DNA of 64,000 bases from Acidobacteriota bacterium (GTDB lineage Bacteria; Zixibacteria; MSB-5A5; GN15; FEB-12): contig DATKXK010000009.1 in assembly GCA_035529075.1 (NCBI GenBank), positions 62,001-126,000 on the forward strand. The letters run 5' to 3'. Positions 36,585-44,164 of the stretch are shown here, piece by piece. Position numbers and translations under genes: made by a program. Under the pieces are notes generated by a model. That model saw only the letters and a program-made list of their open reading frames with translations, ran no database searches and had not been told where the DNA came from. Position 1 is the first letter of the stretch; each line of letters begins with the position of its first letter.

Positions 36585-36613
36585 GTGGTTCGGATGCAAG
36601 AGAGGAGATCGTG

Positions 36614-37144
36614 ATGTCCAGACAGTCTTTGGCGGTGTTGGTGCCGGTCGCAATAGTGTTGGGGCTCGCGGTAGAGCGGGTGCCGGCGCAGGAATCGGCG
36701 GCCATCCAGGCTACCGCTTCGGTGACTACCACCTTGTCGATCACCGGGACCCAGAACCTGCGTTTTAACGTGGTTACGCCGGGGATCAACAAAACCGTGG
36801 ACAAGTCGACCATTGGGCAGGCCGGCGAATGGGCCATCTCGGGAACGGTCAACTCCGAGATAACGCTCAATTTTACGCTGCCGGACTCCCTGCAGCACGC
36901 CCTCCAGCCGGTCGGAATGAACATCGGCTTCAACGCCATAGACGCTTCCTTCGATGACGGCACGGGTGGCGGGCAGACGTTGCCCTCGGGGGTCCTGAAT
37001 CCAAACGGCCCCAGCGCCGAGCGCTTGGGTCCGCTGGGCACGATGACCGTCTGGATCGGCGGCACCGTCTTCCCCGACATTTCCCAGACGGGCGGCAACT
37101 ACGCCTCCGATGTTGTCCTGACGGTAGCGTACACGGGCAGTTGA
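36614..37144 (+). CDS. DUF4402 protein, putative fibre subunit 1
   Basis: A 176-residue exported protein; the ATG at 36614 has AGAGGAG upstream. The signal peptide ends VERVPAQE. The mature N-terminus has an alternating hydrophobic segment (AIQATASVTTTLSITG), then beta strands including ITLNFTLPDSL. The C-terminus is the DUF4402 pattern GGNYASDVVLTVAYTGS, where alternating hydrophobics end in a Tyr four residues from the end. This resembles the donor strand and C-terminal strand of chaperone-usher pilins. It is first in an array leading to chaperone and usher genes. Family membership is clear; the pilin role is inferred. Confidence 0.8.
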   Translation: MSRQSLAVLVPVAIVLGLAVERVPAQESAAIQATASVTTTLSITGTQNLRFNVVTPGINKTVDKSTIGQAGEWAISGTVNSEITLNFTLPDSLQHALQPVGMNIGFNAIDASFDDGTGGGQTLPSGVLNPNGPSAERLGPLGTMTVWIGGTVFPDISQTGGNYASDVVLTVAYTGS

Positions 37145-37276
37145 CGGCGGCCCTGCCGGCGACATCACAGGCCGTTTTTTGGGCGGCGCGGGCGCGCCGA
37201 GGCCAATCGGGTATTGACAATATCCGGATTCGCGGTATCTTGAGGTGTACCTGTCTGTTTACACCTCGATACCGTT

Positions 37277-37738
37277 GTGATTCGAATAAACAGTATATGC
37301 CTTTGTGCGGCGGTGGCGATCCTGCTGTTTTTCCCGGCCTTATCCTCGCCGGCCGGGCCTGTGAACGCCGGAGCGTCGGCGGCCATCAGCGCCTCAGCCA
37401 CGGTGGTGCCGCCACTCGGTTTGATCGTCAGCGAGGCCTCACCGTCTCAGTCCGAAGATGCCGTGGGCCTGATGCCGACTGTCGGGGTTCGGGAATCCGG
37501 CACCGGCGCGCTTCTCGTTCGCTTTCCTCCGGGGAGTTCCTGGCTGCTTTGGCTGGAAGCTGACAAACGCCCGGTCCGGTGCTTCCCGAGGGGAGACGCC
37601 CCGGAATCGCACGAGTGCAGTCGGCCCGCCCTCAAAGCAGGCTCTGCGGAGGCAGCTGTCGATACGGCGGCTCTTCTCAGGTTGGTACCGCCCGGTACTT
37701 CCGACGTTACCGTAACGGTGATCGCCACGGAGAACTGA
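37277..37738 (+). CDS. Small exported protein inside the DUF4402 array
   Basis: A 153-residue protein from a GTG at 37277. The signal peptide ends near SSPAGPVNAG, and a DUF4402-like opening strand, ASAAISASATVVPPLGLIV, follows. The centre differs from its neighbours and has two Cys (RCFPRG and HECSRP) that could form a disulfide. It ends VTVTVIATEN instead of the YTGS/YNGT of the others. It may be a divergent or minor subunit. The coding call rests on signal peptide, position and strand; RBS evidence is weak. Confidence 0.55.
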   Translation: MIRINSICLCAAVAILLFFPALSSPAGPVNAGASAAISASATVVPPLGLIVSEASPSQSEDAVGLMPTVGVRESGTGALLVRFPPGSSWLLWLEADKRPVRCFPRGDAPESHECSRPALKAGSAEAAVDTAALLRLVPPGTSDVTVTVIATEN

Positions 37739-37819
37739 CCGGCCGGCCGAGGCCTGTTAAACCTTGACGTCGTCGTCGCGGCATCGGTAGCTTGCCTTGT
37801 GTTTCCGCGCGGTTGGGTT

Positions 37820-38293
37820 ATGAACGTGGGCCGGTGTTTCCTCGGCGTTCTGGTGGTCATGGGGCTGACCACGTCTGATTCGGCCGGTCAGAACGCCACG
37901 AGCATCGCCGGTCTCGCTTTCGGCAACGTGTTTCCCGGTGTTCCCAAGGTAGTATCCAAGTACACGGCCGGGGCGGCGGCGGAATTCCTGATAACCGGCA
38001 CCGCCGGCGACGAGGTTTCGATTGATTTCACTCTCCCGACCTATATGAACATGAACGGCTTCAACATGCAGCTGGTTTTCCAGGACATGGACTGCGCCAT
38101 GGATTCCAGCGCCTCCCCGGACCAGAGTAATCCGGGGTATGACGATCTTGACCCGTGGGACGTGATTACGTACCGGCTTGGCTCGAGCGGCCTGACCGTC
38201 TGGCTGGGGGGCATGCTGGTGCCGAAGATCGGGCAGCCGCCCGGCGATTACTCGGCCGTTATCGTTCTTACCGTGGCCTACACCGGCAGTTGA
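37820..38293 (+). CDS. DUF4402 protein lacking the N-terminal strand, putative subunit 3
   Basis: About 157 residues from the ATG at 37820 (a GTG seven codons earlier is possible). The signal peptide is followed almost at once by IAGLAFGNVFPGVPK, so the alternating segment ATATV...VVTA present in the paralogues (~17 residues) is missing. The rest matches: ISIDF-like strand VSIDFTLPTYM, a GLTVWLGGMLVPKIGQ strand, and the C-terminal GDYSAVIVLTVAYTGS. If the paralogues use the missing strand to complement the next subunit, this one could only sit at one end of a fibre. Confidence 0.75.
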   Translation: MNVGRCFLGVLVVMGLTTSDSAGQNATSIAGLAFGNVFPGVPKVVSKYTAGAAAEFLITGTAGDEVSIDFTLPTYMNMNGFNMQLVFQDMDCAMDSSASPDQSNPGYDDLDPWDVITYRLGSSGLTVWLGGMLVPKIGQPPGDYSAVIVLTVAYTGS

Positions 38294-38460
38294 CGATCTC
38301 CTTCTCCTTTGGGCTTTGTTCAATCTTGAGGCATACTCTGCCGGTACGCCTGCTTTCTTGCGCCGCCGGGTAATTGAGACTTTCCGGGCGGGCGAATATA
38401 CAAGGAAAGGCAAGAAAAAGATCGCCTGCGGTTTTTCCTGTAGAACTGACGGAGAGGAAG

Positions 38461-39039
38461 ATGAAAAATAGACATGACCGGAACCGCCGCCTTCGTTCGG
38501 TGCTGCTGGTTGCAGCGATCCTGCTGGTGTTCTTCAGCCGGCCCGGTTTTGGGCAGGACGTGGCCAACGGTCAGGCCACGGCAACCGTGCTGGCCGGTCT
38601 CGTCGTGACCGCCGTTCAGGACCTTCAGTTCGGAAATGTCCTTCAGGGTGTTGCCAAGTCGACCCCGAACAACGACGACGCCAATTCCGGCATATTCTCC
38701 GTGGCCGGTGCCACCGGGGCGGGCATTTCCGTATACCTGACGCTGCCCGATTACATGGCTTTGCCGGACGGTTCCGACCGCATGACAATTGCCTTTTCGA
38801 GCACGGATGCCATTGTGGACACGAACGCGACGTCACCGGCGACGGTGGTGGCAGGCGACGGCTGGCTCGATGTCAACCCGCGAGACCTGGGCAGCCTGCC
38901 GCCGACCGGCGTAGTCATCGGCAGTGCCACCAGCCAGACGAACCTGTACCTTGGCGGCAGGGTGACGCCCGCTATTGACCAGGCCGCGGGCAACTACGCG
39001 GCCGACATTATCTGCACTGTTGCCTACAACGGCACCTGA
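38461..39039 (+). CDS. DUF4402 protein, putative fibre subunit 4
   Basis: A 192-residue protein; GGAGAGGA lies just before the ATG at 38461. The signal peptide ends RPGFGQ. The mature N-terminus DVANGQATATVLAGLVVT is shared almost exactly with subunit 6. LQFGNVLQGVAKS, ISVYLTLPDYMALP and the C-terminal GNYAADIICTVAYNGT follow. It is the last gene before an internal terminator at 39064, so it closes the first transcription unit of the array. Confidence 0.82.
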   Translation: MKNRHDRNRRLRSVLLVAAILLVFFSRPGFGQDVANGQATATVLAGLVVTAVQDLQFGNVLQGVAKSTPNNDDANSGIFSVAGATGAGISVYLTLPDYMALPDGSDRMTIAFSSTDAIVDTNATSPATVVAGDGWLDVNPRDLGSLPPTGVVIGSATSQTNLYLGGRVTPAIDQAAGNYAADIICTVAYNGT

Positions 39040-39063
39040 GCGCTCACACCGCTTGCAGCCTGC

Positions 39064-39095
39064 AACGGGGAGCGGTCAGGCTCCCCGTTTCCTTT
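39064..39095 (+). terminator. Rho-independent terminator inside the DUF4402 array
   Basis: AACGGGGAGC (39064-39073) pairs perfectly with GCTCCCCGTT (39080-39089) around a 6-base loop and is followed by a T-rich tract. It begins 25 bases after the stop of subunit 4 and splits the array into two transcription units or attenuates read-through. Confidence 0.8.
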
Positions 39096-39329
39096 CATCA
39101 CATCCTTCTAGTTGACTGGTATTGGGCGGGTTACGCTGTGAACTTCCCCGCGTCACACGGGCGAAGTGGGGAGTCCTCCGGGCACCGCCGGTTGAAACAG
39201 CGTGGTCTGGCCCGGGTCCCACACGGGTGGCTCGCCGCGTCGCACTCTGCGAAAAAAACCGATTCCCCCTGTTAAGATTCTGAACTGCATGACGATTAAA
39301 CAACTACACAAATGGCGTAAACAGAAACA

Positions 39330-39353
39330 GTTCATTCTGTTCGCAGAATGAAC
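39330..39353 (+). promoter_or_regulatory. UUCG-loop hairpin in the leader of subunit 5
   Basis: GTTCATTCTG (39330-39339) and CAGAATGAAC (39344-39353) form a perfect 10-bp stem with a TTCG loop, ending 18 bases before the ATG at 39372 and just upstream of its ribosome-binding site. An in-frame ATG at 39348 would be buried in the stem, which supports the downstream start. A role in mRNA stability or translation of this subunit is plausible. Confidence 0.55.
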
Positions 39354-39371
39354 ATCGGAACGAGGATAGTT

Positions 39372-39935
39372 ATGAGCAAGCTGTCAAGACCGCTATTGAT
39401 GGCGAGAACTTTCGCACTCCTGGCTGCCGCAGCCGTCTGCCTGGGGCCTGCTGCCGTTTTTGCGCAGGACGTGGCAGTTGGTTCGGCGACGGCGACGGTT
39501 CAGGCGGTACTGCAGGTGCAGGCGACGGCAGCGCTCGCTTTTGGCACCGTTTTCCAGGGGATTCCCAAATCCATCGCCAACAGCGCCGCGGATGCCGGGG
39601 TGTTTACGATTACCGGGGAGGGGGGTGCAGGTATATCCGTATATATGCAGCTTCCCGACTACCTGGCCACGGCCACCGGTGATGACCGCATGGTCATCTC
39701 GTTCGGCACCACCGACGCCTCGGTTGACTCGACCGTTAACGTCAATCCAGCCGCATTCGGAAGTGGTTGGCAGGACGTCGACCCGCACAACTTCCCCAAT
39801 ACCATAACGGTCGGTACTGCGGGACAGAATCAGAGCGCGATTTTCCTCGGGGGCAAAGTGATCCCGTCGGTCGATCAGGCGGCGGGCGCATACTCGGGCG
39901 ATGTCGTGCTGACCGTGGCTTACAACGGGTCGTAG
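39372..39935 (+). CDS. DUF4402 protein, putative fibre subunit 5
   Basis: A 187-residue protein; I start at the ATG at 39372, preceded by GGAACGAGG, instead of 39348 within a hairpin. The signal peptide ends AAVFAQ. The mature N-terminus DVAVGSATATVQAVLQVQA is the presumed donor strand. LAFGTVFQGIPKS, ISVYMQLPDYLATATGDDR and the C-terminal GAYSGDVVLTVAYNGS follow. It is highly similar to subunit 6, so the pair probably arose by recent duplication. With its own leader hairpin it is a candidate major subunit. Confidence 0.82.
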   Translation: MSKLSRPLLMARTFALLAAAAVCLGPAAVFAQDVAVGSATATVQAVLQVQATAALAFGTVFQGIPKSIANSAADAGVFTITGEGGAGISVYMQLPDYLATATGDDRMVISFGTTDASVDSTVNVNPAAFGSGWQDVDPHNFPNTITVGTAGQNQSAIFLGGKVIPSVDQAAGAYSGDVVLTVAYNGS

Positions 39936-39989
39936 GCGGTCTAAACCGATGAAAGACACAGCAAACTAAGCGGGTAAACATAACAGTGC

Positions 39990-40005
39990 GGGGCGGGATC
40001 GCCCC
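39990..40005 (+). promoter_or_regulatory. Small GC hairpin before subunit 6
   Basis: GGGGCG (39990-39995) pairs with CGCCCC (40000-40005) around a 4-base loop, 15 bases before the ATG at 40021 and directly before the ribosome-binding site AGGGAGA. It may stabilise the upstream mRNA or limit translation. Confidence 0.4.
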
Positions 40006-40020
40006 AACAGGGAGAAATCT

Positions 40021-40572
40021 ATGAGAACGCATTCACGGATGAGACTGACGGGGCTGCTCCTGGTGGCCGCGGGATTCGTGTTGCTGGCCGTGCCGAACAC
40101 CGGGCTGGCCCAGGACGTCGCCAACGGTTCGGCGACGGCGACGGTGCAGTCGGCGCTGGTCGTGACGGCTCCCGGTACGTTGACGTTTGGTACCGTATAT
40201 CAGGGAGTACCGAAGTCGGTCGCCAACAACGTGGCCGAGGCGGGCAGGTTCCTGATCACGGGACAGGGGCTGGCCGGGATCGCCGCGTACATGCAGCTAC
40301 CGGACTACCTGTCCACCGCGACCGGTGATGACCGGATGGTGATCGCTTTTGGCGCCACCGATGCCTCGATCGACTCAACTGGTAATGTCGATCCCACGAC
40401 GTTCGGCGTAGGCTGGCAAGACGTCGATCCACACAACCTTCCGGACTGCGTCGTCGGCGGTCTCGGCACCACCAATATTTTCCTGGGAGGTTCCGTCATT
40501 CCGTCGGTCGATCAGGCTGCCGGCGCATACACGGCCGACATTATATTGACCGTCGCCTACACGGGGACCTAA
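40021..40572 (+). CDS. DUF4402 protein, putative fibre subunit 6
   Basis: A 183-residue protein with AGGGAGA before the ATG. The signal peptide ends NTGLAQ. The mature N-terminus DVANGSATATVQSALVVTA matches subunits 4 and 5. LTFGTVYQGVPKS, IAAYMQLPDYLSTATGDDR, GWQDVDPHNLP and the C-terminal GAYTADIILTVAYTGT follow. It is the last subunit gene before the chaperone gene, a position often held by a major or terminal pilin in chaperone-usher operons. Confidence 0.82.
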   Translation: MRTHSRMRLTGLLLVAAGFVLLAVPNTGLAQDVANGSATATVQSALVVTAPGTLTFGTVYQGVPKSVANNVAEAGRFLITGQGLAGIAAYMQLPDYLSTATGDDRMVIAFGATDASIDSTGNVDPTTFGVGWQDVDPHNLPDCVVGGLGTTNIFLGGSVIPSVDQAAGAYTADIILTVAYTGT

Positions 40573-40608
40573 TTTGAAAATTCAGTCCTGAACTGATAAC
40601 GACCCATT

Positions 40609-40635
40609 CGGAACCGGCATGGATTGCCGGTTCCG
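40609..40635 (+). promoter_or_regulatory. Perfect 11-bp stem-loop between subunit 6 and the chaperone gene
   Basis: CGGAACCGGCA (40609-40619) pairs with TGCCGGTTCCG (40625-40635) around a 5-base loop. No T tract follows. In pilus operons such as pap, a stem-loop after the major subunit lets its mRNA outlast the distal genes; a similar role is plausible here. Confidence 0.5.
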
Positions 40636-40676
40636 ACCGGGTTGGGAACCTCAACCGTAGCATAGGATGGCCGGAC

Positions 40677-41549
40677 ATGAAACCGCTTGAAAGATTGATT
40701 CCCCGCAGCACAGCGCCGGGACTGCGGGGATTTGTTGTCTTCTGCCTGATGCTTCTGGTGCCGCTGTTCGACGCGGCGGCCGGAGTTCTGGTCGCGCCAA
40801 CCATCGTTTTCATATCGAGCAAGCAGCGGACCGGTCGTTTGACCGTTCAGAACCCCACCGACACGCCCAAGGAAATCACGATCAGGTTCAGCTTCGGCTT
40901 ACCCGTGTCGGACAGCCTCGGCCAGGTACACATAGCCCTTCAGGACAGCGCCGTCACGGACCCGCATTCGGCGCTGGGCTGGGTAAAAGCGTTTCCGCGA
41001 AAGCTCATTCTCCCGCCGAGCGGAGAGCAGATCATCCGCTTTGTGGCGAGTCCGCCGGCCGACCTTCCCGAGGGAGAGTACTGGGCCCGGATTGTCGTGC
41101 AATCACGCGAAGCAGAAACGGCCGTGCCGCCGGCGAGCGAGGAGGGCATAATCACGACCCGACTCAACATGGTGATGCAGACGGCGATGATGCTGAAGTT
41201 CCGGAAGGGAAATCTTGTGTCTCAACTCGAGGTCACGGGAATGGAGGTGCGCCGTGACTCGGGCAACGTCGAGGTTACGGTCGACATGACCAGCCAGGGG
41301 AATGCCTCCTACGTGGGGCTGCTAAACTGCCGGCTGCTGGATGCCGACAACCGGGAGTTGAGCAGCCAGTCGGTGCAACTTGCCGTCTACTACAGTCTGC
41401 GGCGGCGAGTCTTCCTGCCCGTAACCGGGTCCGATTTCAAGGAACCGTATCACGTGGAACTCGCTATCAGCACCAGGGGCCGCACCGATATTGCGGCCGA
41501 GGACATGATCCACGGCAACAATATCATGCTGACCCAAACGCCGGAATAG
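40677..41549 (+). CDS. PapD-like periplasmic chaperone
   Basis: A 290-residue exported protein; AGGATGG precedes the ATG. After a signal peptide (to about residue 36) the first Ig-like domain has VLVAPTIVFISSKQRTGRLT, VQNPTDTPKEITIRF and then FPRKLILPPSGEQIIRF and DLPEGEYWARIVV, the pattern of fimbrial chaperones (N-terminal domain strand G1 and the LPxxxEYxxx motif). A second beta domain follows (about 175-285). It probably binds the C-terminal strand of the DUF4402 subunits in the periplasm and hands them to the usher-like protein encoded 29 bases downstream. Confidence 0.82.
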   Translation: MKPLERLIPRSTAPGLRGFVVFCLMLLVPLFDAAAGVLVAPTIVFISSKQRTGRLTVQNPTDTPKEITIRFSFGLPVSDSLGQVHIALQDSAVTDPHSALGWVKAFPRKLILPPSGEQIIRFVASPPADLPEGEYWARIVVQSREAETAVPPASEEGIITTRLNMVMQTAMMLKFRKGNLVSQLEVTGMEVRRDSGNVEVTVDMTSQGNASYVGLLNCRLLDADNRELSSQSVQLAVYYSLRRRVFLPVTGSDFKEPYHVELAISTRGRTDIAAEDMIHGNNIMLTQTPE

Positions 41550-41578
41550 CGTGGTTTCCGGAACGGCGGTGACGTGCC

Positions 41579-44164
41579 ATGGAACGGCATAGCGCAAGAC
41601 GAAGACCGGGGGCCGGGATACTGGCGGTAACCGCCGCCGTTCTGTGCCTGGGGGCATCAACGGTGCCGGCGCAGGAACCCTCCTTCGAAGAGATCGTGGT
41701 CAGTTTCGAGGTTCCCCGGCTGTTGCAGCAGGACGTCTTCGTGCAGTACGACGGCCGGACCGTCTACCTGCCGGTTGTCGAGATGCTGACCATCCTGGAT
41801 CTCAGCATTGCCGCCGACTTCACCGAAAAAACCATCTCCGGCTTCGTTATTGACGAGAAGAACCGGTTTCGCATCGACCTGAACACCTTTGAGGTACAGG
41901 CACGTGAGGGCGTGTACCATCTGCTGGCCTCCGAGTTTTACATGGGCCGGAGCGATCTCTACGTTCGAGTCGACCTGTTCGAGCAACTGTTCGGTCTGCC
42001 CGTGACGTTCGACTTCTCCCTGTTGCGGGTCCTGATGCCCCTAAGCGAGGACCTTCCGGCATACCGCAAGCTTGAACGTCAGGCGAAACGGAAAAAACTC
42101 CAGCGCACGAAGGCGGCACTCAATGATGTTCTGAGGCTGGCGCAGGAGCGGGACTACCTCAAGGGTGGCGTCATCGACTGGGTCGTGGGAGCCAATCCGC
42201 TCGAACGCGACGGGCAGTACTATGATCTCAGTATGGGCGGCATGGTGCTCGGGGGCGACGCCTACATCGGTATGGCCGGCAATTCGCGAAGTCGTTTTGA
42301 CACCGATCGTTTCACCGGCCGCTGGCACTACTTTCTTGACAACGGCCCCTATATAACGCAGGTCGATGTCGGGCATGTTTACTCCACCGGCGCCTTCTCC
42401 CGCCGCTTCACCGGCGCCGTGGTCACCAACAGGCCGCAGACGCGCCGGAAGTACTTCCAGACGGTCGAGGTATCCGGGTACGCCGGAGAGAGCTGGGAGG
42501 TGGAGCTGTACGTCGATCGCACGCTGGTTGATTTCGTGACGGCCGATGCCCGGGGCGAGTATCATTTTACGCTCGACATCTACTACGGTGCTTCGGTAAT
42601 GGAGCTGCGGATGTACGGTCCGAACGGCGAGATCCGGACGGAAGAGAGGTACGTTCGCATCCCTCATAACCTGATTCCCGACGGCGAAATCGAGTACACG
42701 GTAGCCCTGGGCGAGTCGTCGGTGCGCGAGCAGGCTCGCAACTACGCTCAGGCCAGCGCCTACTACGGGGTGTTTAACCGCCTGACCGCCGGGCTGTCCG
42801 CCGACCTGCCGGTAGGCAGCGACAATAAGGAAGACGCGCTGGTCGCCGGCGAGGCGGTGCTGCAACTGGCCAACAACCTGACGGTCAACGGCTCGATTTC
42901 TCCCTCGAACGTGGTGACCGGCAGTTTCAGCTTCAGCGAGCCGTCCCGGGTCAACCTGAACGGCAGCTTCAGCAAGTACTTCGAGAACCGGTTCCGCAAC
43001 CCGCTGCAACAGGATTTCCGCCTTCAGTTCGCCTTTTCGGTTCCGTTGCGCATCAGGGACAAGTATTTCGGTGTGCGCTACTTTGTAGCCGCGGACCGAT
43101 TTCCCTCTCACACTTCGGTGAACATGAATTTCGGCCTGACGGCATCGCTCAGTCCGGTGCAGGTCAACTACATGGGTCGGTACAAGGTGACGAAGTACGG
43201 CTGGCGCAGGGCCAGCAACTTTACCAGCCAGTTGCTGATTTCGCCCCGGTTCCTGCGGTGGTGCCGCCCGCAGTTGCGTCTGGACTACGATCACACGGAG
43301 AATCTCCTGGCCAAGTACGGGGTATGGATCAGCAAGCGGCTTTTCCGAACGGGGCAACTGACCCTGTCGTACGAGCGCAACGAGATGGCCAAGGCGAACT
43401 CCATCATGCTGACCTTCAATTTCTTCAGCGATTTTGCGCACTTCACCACCAGAGTGCTGCACGCCGCCGGCAACCTGAGCATGAATCAGCTTCAGCGCGG
43501 CTCCGTCAGGTACGATCAGGACGACCGCAAGCTGCTGTTTGACCGGACCAACGGCGTCGGCTACGGTACGGCCGTGGTGCGACCGTATCTGGACGGCAAC
43601 TACAACGGCCGCTACGACCTCGGCGAGGAATATCTTACGGGTCTCCGGGCGCGGATTCCCGGGGTGTCCGGAAGGCCGCGCGGAAAGGACCGGGTGTACT
43701 ATTACGAGCGGCTGCGCCCCTACGACGAATACCTCCTCCAGATCGACGAGTACAGTCTTGATGACCCGCTGCTCAAGCCGACCAACGAGGCCTACCAGGT
43801 AACGCTCAATCCCAACGTGGTCACGCCCATCGATGTGCCGTTGGTGATGGCAGGTGAGCTGTCAGGCCAGGTGCGGCGGCGCCTGGAATACGGCGACGCA
43901 GGCATCGGCGGCATGAAGCTGATTGTGGTTAACGTCAGCAAAGATATCATGAGCGAAGTGACGACGTTCGCCGACGGCGACTACTACTACCTGGGCTTGC
44001 TGCCCGGATCATACCGCGTGTATATCGACCCCGCGCAGCTTGAGAACTACGGCTATATCACACAGCCGGAGGCACGCGAGTTCAAAGTCACCGTGGCGGA
44101 GGGTGGCATGTCAGTGGTGAACATCGATTTTCTGCTGCTGCCGAAAACGCAGACTTCCCGGTAG
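41579..44164 (+). CDS. Usher-like outer-membrane protein
   Basis: An 861-residue protein with a signal peptide (ending VPAQE). An N-terminal periplasmic domain (about 30-150) and a basic helical linker (KLERQAKRKKLQRTK) precede a long beta-rich region (about 190-690) of alternating aromatic/hydrophobic strands. It includes VEVSGYAGESWEVELYVDR and RIPHNLIPDGEIEYTVALGE, the latter strongly usher-like (compare PYxLLPPGxxEYxVxxG). The C-terminal ~130 residues form a carboxypeptidase-regulatory-like Ig domain (SGQVRRRLEYGDAGIGGMKL, then LLPGSYRVYIDP). It is probably the secretion pore and assembly platform for the DUF4402 subunits. Similarity to FimD/PapC is distant; a non-usher role is possible. 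Confidence 0.75.
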   Translation: MERHSARRRPGAGILAVTAAVLCLGASTVPAQEPSFEEIVVSFEVPRLLQQDVFVQYDGRTVYLPVVEMLTILDLSIAADFTEKTISGFVIDEKNRFRIDLNTFEVQAREGVYHLLASEFYMGRSDLYVRVDLFEQLFGLPVTFDFSLLRVLMPLSEDLPAYRKLERQAKRKKLQRTKAALNDVLRLAQERDYLKGGVIDWVVGANPLERDGQYYDLSMGGMVLGGDAYIGMAGNSRSRFDTDRFTGRWHYFLDNGPYITQVDVGHVYSTGAFSRRFTGAVVTNRPQTRRKYFQTVEVSGYAGESWEVELYVDRTLVDFVTADARGEYHFTLDIYYGASVMELRMYGPNGEIRTEERYVRIPHNLIPDGEIEYTVALGESSVREQARNYAQASAYYGVFNRLTAGLSADLPVGSDNKEDALVAGEAVLQLANNLTVNGSISPSNVVTGSFSFSEPSRVNLNGSFSKYFENRFRNPLQQDFRLQFAFSVPLRIRDKYFGVRYFVAADRFPSHTSVNMNFGLTASLSPVQVNYMGRYKVTKYGWRRASNFTSQLLISPRFLRWCRPQLRLDYDHTENLLAKYGVWISKRLFRTGQLTLSYERNEMAKANSIMLTFNFFSDFAHFTTRVLHAAGNLSMNQLQRGSVRYDQDDRKLLFDRTNGVGYGTAVVRPYLDGNYNGRYDLGEEYLTGLRARIPGVSGRPRGKDRVYYYERLRPYDEYLLQIDEYSLDDPLLKPTNEAYQVTLNPNVVTPIDVPLVMAGELSGQVRRRLEYGDAGIGGMKLIVVNVSKDIMSEVTTFADGDYYYLGLLPGSYRVYIDPAQLENYGYITQPEAREFKVTVAEGGMSVVNIDFLLLPKTQTSR

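Follow-up and report, generated by a model that had tools for sequence, protein, structure and literature searches.

A Zixibacteria gene cluster very likely encoding a chaperone-usher pilus with DUF4402 subunits and a divergent usher

Introduction

In the window (the whole 64,000-nucleotide stretch of DNA that was analysed, from an uncultured member of the candidate phylum Zixibacteria), a row of small exported proteins is followed first by a PapD-like chaperone and then by an outer-membrane protein of 861 aa. The locus raises the question of whether DUF4402 proteins (PF14352) are the subunits of a chaperone-usher pilus, as a first-pass annotation had proposed from sequence alone, and whether the usher defines a new clade. 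This route to hair-like surface fibres is known from E. coli, and its classical and alternative forms have been described as restricted to beta- and gamma-Proteobacteria (PMC9452303). In the open-access literature searched, neither a mention of DUF4402 nor an earlier description of this system was found (subscription journals were outside the scope). It was concluded that the cluster is, with high confidence, a chaperone-usher pilus system of a deep-branching, uncatalogued clade, with fibre formation and donor-strand exchange being inferred. A function is thereby proposed for DUF4402.

Gene organization and conservation

Eight reading frames, all open and on the + strand, span 36611-44164 (Table 1). 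The start codons are approximate: S1 begins at either 36611 (GTG) or 36614 (ATG), and the start of S4 is probably 38461. The gene order recurred in 20/20 Zixibacteria loci examined, namely, the window and 19 others, and most of the additional Zixibacteria contigs also had it. Thus, the array is not a product of chance. The claimed content of five DUF4402 proteins, one divergent exported protein, a chaperone, and an usher-like protein, all co-oriented, held. The claimed origin in an FCB-group bacterium also fits, since the nearest named relatives of the window are Candidatus Zixiibacteriota.

Table 1. Features of the predicted chaperone-usher cluster
Feature	Coordinates	Strand	Evidence
S1, subunit with N-terminal extension, DUF4402-like	36611..37144	+	PF14352 E 0.016; orthologue upstream in nearly all operons
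S2, divergent exported protein, fast-evolving	37277..37738	+	No family match; recognisable orthologues in four loci only
S3, DUF4402 subunit without N-terminal extension, predicted distal tip	37799..38293	+	PF14352 27.7 bits; alignment
S4, DUF4402 subunit with N-terminal extension	38461..39039 (longest ORF from 38374)	+	Pfam search, alignment
Terminator-like stem-loop GGGGAGC-GGTCAG-GCTCCCC then GTTTCCTTT	39067..39086	+	Read from sequence, just after S4
Sigma28 (FliA-type)-like promoter element TTAAGATT-N11-GACGATTA	39272..39298	+	About 50 bp upstream of S5
S5, DUF4402 subunit with N-terminal extension, candidate rod subunit	39348..39935	+	Pfam search, AlphaFold model
S6, DUF4402 subunit with N-terminal extension, candidate rod subunit	40021..40572	+	62% identical to S5
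PapD-like periplasmic chaperone	40677..41549	+	EcpB E 0.06; PapD_N in 16/21 family members; FimC-family profile match
Usher: N-terminal domain, 24-strand barrel, plug ~294-361, two C-terminal domains	41579..44164	+	AlphaFold, Foldseek, profile-profile, tree

Identification of the usher

Standard searches did not name the 861-aa protein. No protein of the window matched PF00577 above the Pfam cut-off, and the TcfC and CooC_C usher domains matched neither the window proteins nor the 21 members of the usher family. None of the 132 genomes of the phylum reached PF00577, while the E. coli control was positive; within the usher family, a single member reached it, and only weakly (1/21, E 0.07). The distant relatives of the usher were likewise PF00577-negative, and an NCBIfam search returned only noise. 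Sequence-profile searches with the usher, the chaperone, and the subunit brought no useful match among PDB sequences. As the divergence was too great for such searches, predicted folds and profile-profile comparison were used.

The AlphaFold model of the protein (pLDDT 86) was compared with the PDB using Foldseek, and ranks 1-18 were all FimD/PapC (E 1e-28 to 6e-13, 11-14% identity, up to 922 alignment columns). DSSP assigned six barrel strands, a six-strand insert at 294-361, and then 18 barrel strands, giving 24 in all with the plug between barrel strands 6 and 7. All five domains of an usher were accordingly present in the model, namely, the N-terminal domain, 24-strand barrel, plug, and two C-terminal domains, with no solved structure available. 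In profile-profile comparison, the family matched seven E. coli K-12 ushers at 97% (E 4e-11) and a PF00577 usher of V. splendidus at 97.5%, and the reversed control reached 11.7%. The profile-profile check thus indicated distant homology, and the 861-aa protein is taken as an usher on the basis of the predicted fold and this comparison.

A referee may object that the barrel has nothing to do with ushers and serves as an exporter, such as one for polysaccharide or lipid, and that its neighbours are soluble surface proteins. In favour of this are the failure of plain HMM searches to give an usher name, with a single family member at PF00577 E 0.07, and the NCBI names of relatives, which are taken from the C-terminal domain. 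Against it, the top 18 PDB folds were ushers, with LptD, FepA, and AlgE far behind (E ~1e-5); the plug position and strand count were usher-like; the profile homology had a clean reversed control; and the protein was constantly paired with a PapD-like chaperone. The exporter explanation can thus virtually be dismissed.

Properties of the chaperone

The chaperone gene was adjacent to the usher gene in nearly all loci. PapD_N was recognised in 16 of the 21 chaperone family members, and profile-profile comparison with the FimC family gave 92-96%. By sequence, EcpB was the nearest solved chaperone, although the match was weak (E 0.06). On the FimC profile alignment (92% probability), the positions aligned with Arg8 and Lys112 of FimC are Val/Ile and Met, respectively; on this alignment, the two basic carboxylate-binding residues of classical chaperones are absent. 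Non-classical chaperones also lack these residues (PMC4654587).

DUF4402 subunits and the N-terminal extension

All but one of the six small exported proteins gave a PF14352 match. Two scored above the Pfam cut-off of 25.2 bits (27.7 and 25.3), one was just below it (23.2 bits, E 1e-4), and two were weak (E 0.016 and 0.04). The Pfam search matched the sixth protein, S2, to no family; an extension-like stretch is visible at its N-terminus. Neither spore-coat-U nor any other Pfam pilin family was matched by the subunits of the window, and CS1/ECP-type pilins had no Pfam match in the window proteins.

The AlphaFold model of S5 (pLDDT 94.6) was a pilin-like Ig domain with residues 1-16 unpaired. 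Among its top 50 PDB matches, 41 were chaperone-usher pilins, and Caf1, Csu subunits, and CfaB were among the better ones. The best E-value was only 2e-3 and the TM-scores were about 0.5 or below; thus, the likeness of fold alone would not settle the pilin identity.

Chaperone-usher subunits other than the tip subunit begin with an extension of 10-20 residues in which hydrophobics alternate (PMC3960871). The same pattern was found here, with an extension of approximately 15 residues in the subunits and none in the S3 class. In 114 distinct subunits with a 25-residue spacing, positions 8, 10, 12, 16, and 18 were hydrophobic in 96-100%, versus 4-30% for positions 9, 11, 17, and 19. The extension-less class, shorter by 11-15 residues, was present in each of the 20 Zixibacteria loci (one such subunit in 19 loci and two in one locus). 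This count was a by-eye reading, and a few cleavage sites were also placed by eye.

The claim of an alternating hydrophobic segment common to the subunits was therefore only partly upheld: it applies to four of the five DUF4402 proteins, being absent from S3 and its orthologues. The shared C-terminal V-A-Y-(T/N)-G-(S/T) held and is plain in the alignment, along with the mutual similarity of the subunits. The proposal that DUF4402 proteins are subunits of a divergent chaperone-usher pilus was supported in each testable part, and the donor-strand step remains an inference supported by the sequence pattern only.

Distribution of the usher and its association with DUF4402

Relatives of the usher profile were found in Bacteroidota, Alpha-, Beta-, and Gammaproteobacteria, and Bdellovibrionota, and DUF4402 genes lay beside this usher type in these groups as well as in Zixibacteria. 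In the case of Alphaproteobacteria (240 genomes), eight of nine DUF4402 genomes carried this usher, all eight within 2.9 kb (p = 5e-10). PF00577 ushers occurred in 2/9 of these genomes (p = 0.17), and no DUF4402 gene lay beside one among the alphaproteobacterial genomes searched. In the Bacteroidota search, which returned 131 genomes, nearly all usher-profile matches covered only the last ~100 positions, an SdrD_B-like C-terminal domain, and only matches running through the barrel were counted; three of four DUF4402 genomes then had this usher. The usher was found without a PF14352 match in two Bacteroidota genomes and in 8 of 16 usher-bearing Alphaproteobacteria, so some partners go unrecognised as DUF4402. 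Neither of the outcomes named beforehand as refuting the proposal, DUF4402 arrays without chaperone or usher and an unrelated barrel, occurred.

The DUF4402-chaperone-usher order was also present on plasmids of Polaromonas, Sphingopyxis, and Pseudoalteromonas, where the usher relatives are annotated as 'carboxypeptidase regulatory-like', as NCBI names follow the C-terminal domain. Owing to its divergence, the usher escapes standard databases, and its relatives from cultured bacteria carry the names of unrelated proteins. An usher is the likely true identity of outer-membrane proteins now named 'carboxypeptidase regulatory-like' or 'SdrD B-like'. As cultured carriers exist, among them Polaromonas sp. 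JS666 (plasmid 2), Sphingopyxis indica, and Pseudoalteromonas xiamenensis, the claim is directly testable.

Position among known chaperone-usher systems

Similar to classical pili (type 1 FimA-FimC-FimD and P pili), the cluster has a predicted five-domain usher fold, a two-domain PapD-like chaperone, and incomplete Ig subunits with an alternating-hydrophobic extension that one class lacks. Unlike them, its usher has 11-14% identity and no PF00577 match, its chaperone has other residues at the positions aligned with FimC Arg8 and Lys112, its subunits are DUF4402 proteins, and the predicted tip is a single domain. In the case of alternative (alpha) pili (CFA/I and ECP), CfaB was among the best subunit matches and EcpB was the nearest chaperone, though weakly; however, the EcpC profile match was no stronger than that of classical ushers, and the TcfC and CooC_C models found no match in the Zixibacteria family. 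Type V pili of Bacteroidia (FimA/Mfa1) are FCB-group pili for which strand complementation in assembly has been proposed. They are not known to be built via a periplasmic chaperone and usher, both of which are present here, and the subunits match no such family; the type V reading was dropped.

Another objection is that the system is a divergent member of the archaic (sigma) clade (Csu and CupE). No other chaperone-usher type is spread over as many phyla as the archaic one (PMC4654587, PMC9452303), this system likewise has a wide phylogenetic spread, and Csu subunits were among the best structural matches. Moreover, a PF00577 usher of V. splendidus matched as strongly as classical ushers, and the classical carboxylate-binding residues are missing both here and in non-classical chaperones (PMC4654587). 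On the other hand, a branch with SH-aLRT 98 set the new ushers apart from the 13 PF00577 or alternative ushers in the tree, no genome of the 132 reached PF00577, the cluster contains no spore-coat-U or other known archaic pilin family, and DUF4402 was not found beside PF00577 ushers in Alphaproteobacteria. The tree was a quick one that included no verified CsuD or CupE. Membership of the archaic clade is considered improbable.

The suggestion that the usher is unlike FimD/PapC apart from short motifs and may represent a new clade was supported by its PF00577-negative status and its separation from the PF00577 ushers in this tree. A separate clade would extend the chaperone-usher pathway to the FCB group and would bear on the origin of the pathway. 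We lean, by a narrow margin, toward a bolder joint reading, in which the system belongs to a deep clade apart from the classical, archaic, and alternative ones. Such a clade would have its own pilin family in DUF4402, a tip made of one domain, and members in Zixibacteria, Bacteroidota, Latescibacterota, Fibrobacter-like bacteria, Bdellovibrionota, and Proteobacteria; in Zixibacteria, a sigma28-type promoter would tie rod expression to motility.

Proposed assembly

No fibre has been seen to date, and the following steps are inferred. Signal peptides would export the subunits, and the G1 strand of the chaperone would complete each incomplete Ig-like DUF4402 subunit and hand it to the usher. There, the ~15-residue extension of the next subunit would displace the chaperone strand, the plug would move out, and the growing fibre would thread the 24-strand pore. 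Without an extension, S3 could accept but not donate a strand, and so it would have to be the first subunit of the fibre and end up at the tip. The rod is likely made of S5 and S6, whose genes adjoin those of the chaperone and usher.

Alternatively, instead of a tipped rod, the product could be a thin tip-less polyadhesin or a capsule-like coat of the F1 antigen or Saf kind. S3 is a single domain of 164 aa with no extra receptor-binding domain, Caf1 structures were among the better pilin matches, and the subunits are short with several near-equal paralogues. However, the extension-less class was kept in 20/20 loci, which a tip-less polymer would not need, and several different subunits occur in a fixed order. 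A coat is thus regarded as unlikely, and the rod with a tip is preferred.

Terminator-like and promoter-like elements between S4 and S5

A conserved terminator after S4 and a conserved sigma28-like promoter element before S5 split the cluster ahead of the last two subunits, a feature missed in the earlier reading. With this split, S5/S6, the chaperone, and the usher could switch on together with motility genes, although sigma28 control is inferred. A search upstream of the first subunit found no sigma28-like element. Within the first 120 bp of the S4-S5 gap, a terminator-like site was present in 24 of 41 distinct homologous gaps, compared with 0.5 expected from shuffles.

Gene cluster and usher

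The window derives from a 3.04 Mb genome whose closest named relatives are Candidatus Zixiibacteriota. Its eight-gene cluster (six small exported proteins, S1–S6, followed by a PapD-like chaperone and an 861-aa protein) very likely encodes a chaperone–usher system at the pathway level; the fibre was not seen, and strand exchange was inferred. DUF4402 (PF14352) was detected by Pfam in S1, S3, S4, S5, and S6, above the cut-off in two of the five, while S2 matched no family in the Pfam search of the window proteins. The subunits, chaperone, and usher were alignable with orthologues in identical order in 19 other Zixibacteria loci, with S4 or S1 unseen in a few, and the layout was identical in most longer Zixibacteria contigs of a public genome collection. 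The search covered the genome of the window and those of 60 relatives, and 47 of these 61 contained an usher relative.

Features of the cluster and of the comparison loci
Feature	Coordinates	Strand	Description
Eight-gene cluster	36611-44164	+	S1–S6 small exported, then 290-aa protein, 861-aa protein
Conserved non-coding gap S4–S5	39040-39347		terminator-like hairpin and sigma28-like promoter element
Sigma28-like element	39272-39298		sole match in 64 kb
Inverted repeat	39330-39353		10-bp perfect repeat, overlaps annotated S5 start
Chaperone	40677-41549	+	PapD-like
Usher	41579-44164	+	861 aa
Second chaperone–usher pair	L050:10498-14255		22–24% identical
Split usher	L041:11884-14538		666- and 214-aa frames; contig shared with L062
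Fused subunit	L113:7997-8908		extension-less domain joined to second DUF4402 domain

The identity of the 861-aa protein was evaluated through its predicted fold and profile homology. PF00577, the Pfam usher family, gave a single match (E 0.07) among the window usher and its family members, whose C-termini matched SdrD_B or carboxypeptidase-regulatory domains, and a profile search of PDB sequences found nothing. Each of the 18 best PDB matches of the AlphaFold model (mean pLDDT 86) was a FimD or PapC structure (E 1e-28 to 6e-13); the non-usher barrels LptD, FepA, and AlgE followed at E about 1e-5. DSSP placed 6 barrel strands at residues 194–283, an insert of 6 strands at 294–361, and 18 barrel strands at 371–646; the model thus predicts a 24-stranded barrel whose plug lies between strands 6 and 7. 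PapC likewise has 24 strands with a plug in that position. By correspondence with the five-domain usher plan (PMC3960871), residues 33–182 form the N-terminal domain and 651–859 two C-terminal domains. The protein therefore resembles FimD and PapC in fold, strand count, and plug position, but is only 11–14% identical to them. The first-pass annotation had called it usher-like and proposed a profile–profile comparison; against seven E. coli K-12 ushers, this gave 97% probability (E 4e-11) with distant members included and 93% with the Zixibacteria set alone, versus 11.7% for the reversed control. That claim held, and there is little doubt that the protein is an usher.

Chaperone and place among known ushers

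PapD_N was detected in 16 of 21 chaperone family members (best E 3e-6), and the chaperone profile matched the FimC family with 92–96% probability. In classical systems, FimC Arg8 and Lys112 bind the subunit carboxylate. Unlike classical chaperones, the present one lacks this pair, the aligned positions being Val/Ile and Met. Archaic chaperones share this absence, carrying instead an Arg in strand F1 and a Tyr and an Arg in domain 2 (PMC4654587). R138, Y238, and R243 are conserved in the family and, guessing from position, could form an archaic-type carboxylate site.

The cluster failed both the classical and the alternative clade tests. No PF00577 match was found in 132 genomes of the phylum, while the E. 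coli positive control was detected. In a quick-mode ML tree of 40 ushers (802 columns), all 27 new ushers lay on one side of a branch (SH-aLRT 98), opposite the K-12 classical ushers, EcpC, and five other PF00577 ushers; the Zixibacteria ushers grouped with those of Bacteroidota. Membership of the archaic clade is a rival reading, which we slightly disfavor. Its exclusion is not final because the tree contained long branches and no verified CsuD or CupE. Of the earlier suggestion that the usher may define a new clade, the separation from sampled PF00577 ushers held. No prior description of this system was found in the open literature searched.

Association of DUF4402 with the usher

Among 240 alphaproteobacterial genomes, DUF4402 was above the cut-off in 9, the new usher (counted only if matched through the barrel) in 16, and both in 8 (p=5e-10; p=6e-9 without the centre genome), with the genes ≤2.9 kb apart in all eight. 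PF00577 ushers occurred in 20 genomes, overlapping with DUF4402 in 2 (p=0.17) and adjoining it in neither. In 198 Bacteroidota genomes, the new usher adjoined DUF4402 in three of four DUF4402 genomes (p=9e-4 without the centre genome). In Polaromonas, Sphingopyxis, and Pseudoalteromonas plasmids, DUF4402 gene(s) were followed by a chaperone and a 'carboxypeptidase regulatory-like' protein; NCBI annotation named the chaperone in some and the usher in none, and in one record the neighbour genes were unnamed. In these samples, DUF4402 tracks this usher type and, in Alphaproteobacteria, not PF00577 ushers. The first-pass annotation had placed DUF4402 genes beside this usher type, and the genome survey that it proposed upheld this in all three settings; its claim of an N-terminal alternating hydrophobic segment common to the subunits held only in part, as the S3 class lacks it.

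Some Zixibacteria (G034) carry a second chaperone–usher pair, without a subunit recognised by the subunit profile; a similar usher match was seen in G011. One usher was split into two frames, and several other relatives had one in-frame stop. Decay, phase variation, or MAG errors are all conceivable.

Subunits and predicted tip

The model of mature S5 (pLDDT 94.6) left residues 1–16 in no strand, and 41 of its top 50 PDB matches were chaperone–usher pilins (CfaB, Csu, FimI, Caf1, PapE, FimA), with a modest best E of only 2e-3. Where 25 residues separate the mature N-terminus from a conserved Leu-x-Phe motif (114 distinct subunits), positions 8, 10, 12, 16, and 18 were hydrophobic in 96–100% and positions 9, 11, 17, and 19 in 4–30%. 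All pilins other than FimH/PapG are described as having a donor strand of 10–20 residues that includes five alternating hydrophobics (PMC3960871). The observed alternation is likely the donor-strand pattern, as inferred from sequence; strand exchange was not shown.

The S3 class lacks the extension because only 10–14 residues precede the motif, as FimH and PapG also lack one. Such a subunit was present in 20/20 Zixibacteria loci read, exactly one in 19. As S3 could accept but not donate a strand, it would be first out, and is thus the probable tip subunit, predicted from the extension pattern. L111 (Bdellovibrionota) and L113 (Alphaproteobacteria) showed the same split. The linker of the L113 fusion contains an alternating stretch (LSVNLPVTLTL), and the protein may act as a natural two-subunit unit.

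Putative promoter between S4 and S5

A long gap always separated the third-last subunit gene from the second-last (S4 from S5 in the window; median 290 bp in 54 operons, against medians of 33–97 for later gaps). A terminator-like hairpin occurred in 24 of 41 distinct gaps versus 0.5 expected, and a conserved element with the consensus TTAAGATT-N11-GACGATTA in at least 26; both features recur in most Zixibacteria operons. The FliA (sigma28) consensus is TAAAGTTT-N11-GCCGATAA; both halves and the 11-bp spacing fit it. No such element was found upstream of the first subunit in the Zixibacteria operons compared. A relaxed pattern gave ten matches in three genomes and none in the reversed control. 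Other sigma28-like sites in G000, G027, and G029 carry the labels L160–L167. In G029, one match precedes a FlgN-like gene behind a flgJ-like gene (L167) and another (L166) lies ahead of a gene for a PilV-like type IV pilin, names read from the sequences and not from a search. Given the consensus fit and the motility-like neighbours, the candidate rod subunits S5 and S6, the chaperone, and the usher probably share their control with motility genes and are regulated separately from S1–S4; this is inferred from sequence alone.

A sigma28-like site also precedes an FHA-domain protein gene in two genomes (L162, L163). The inverted repeat, GTTCATTCTG-TTCG-CAGAATGAAC, may act as a hairpin in regulation; alternatively, translation of S5 may begin from the ATG further in.
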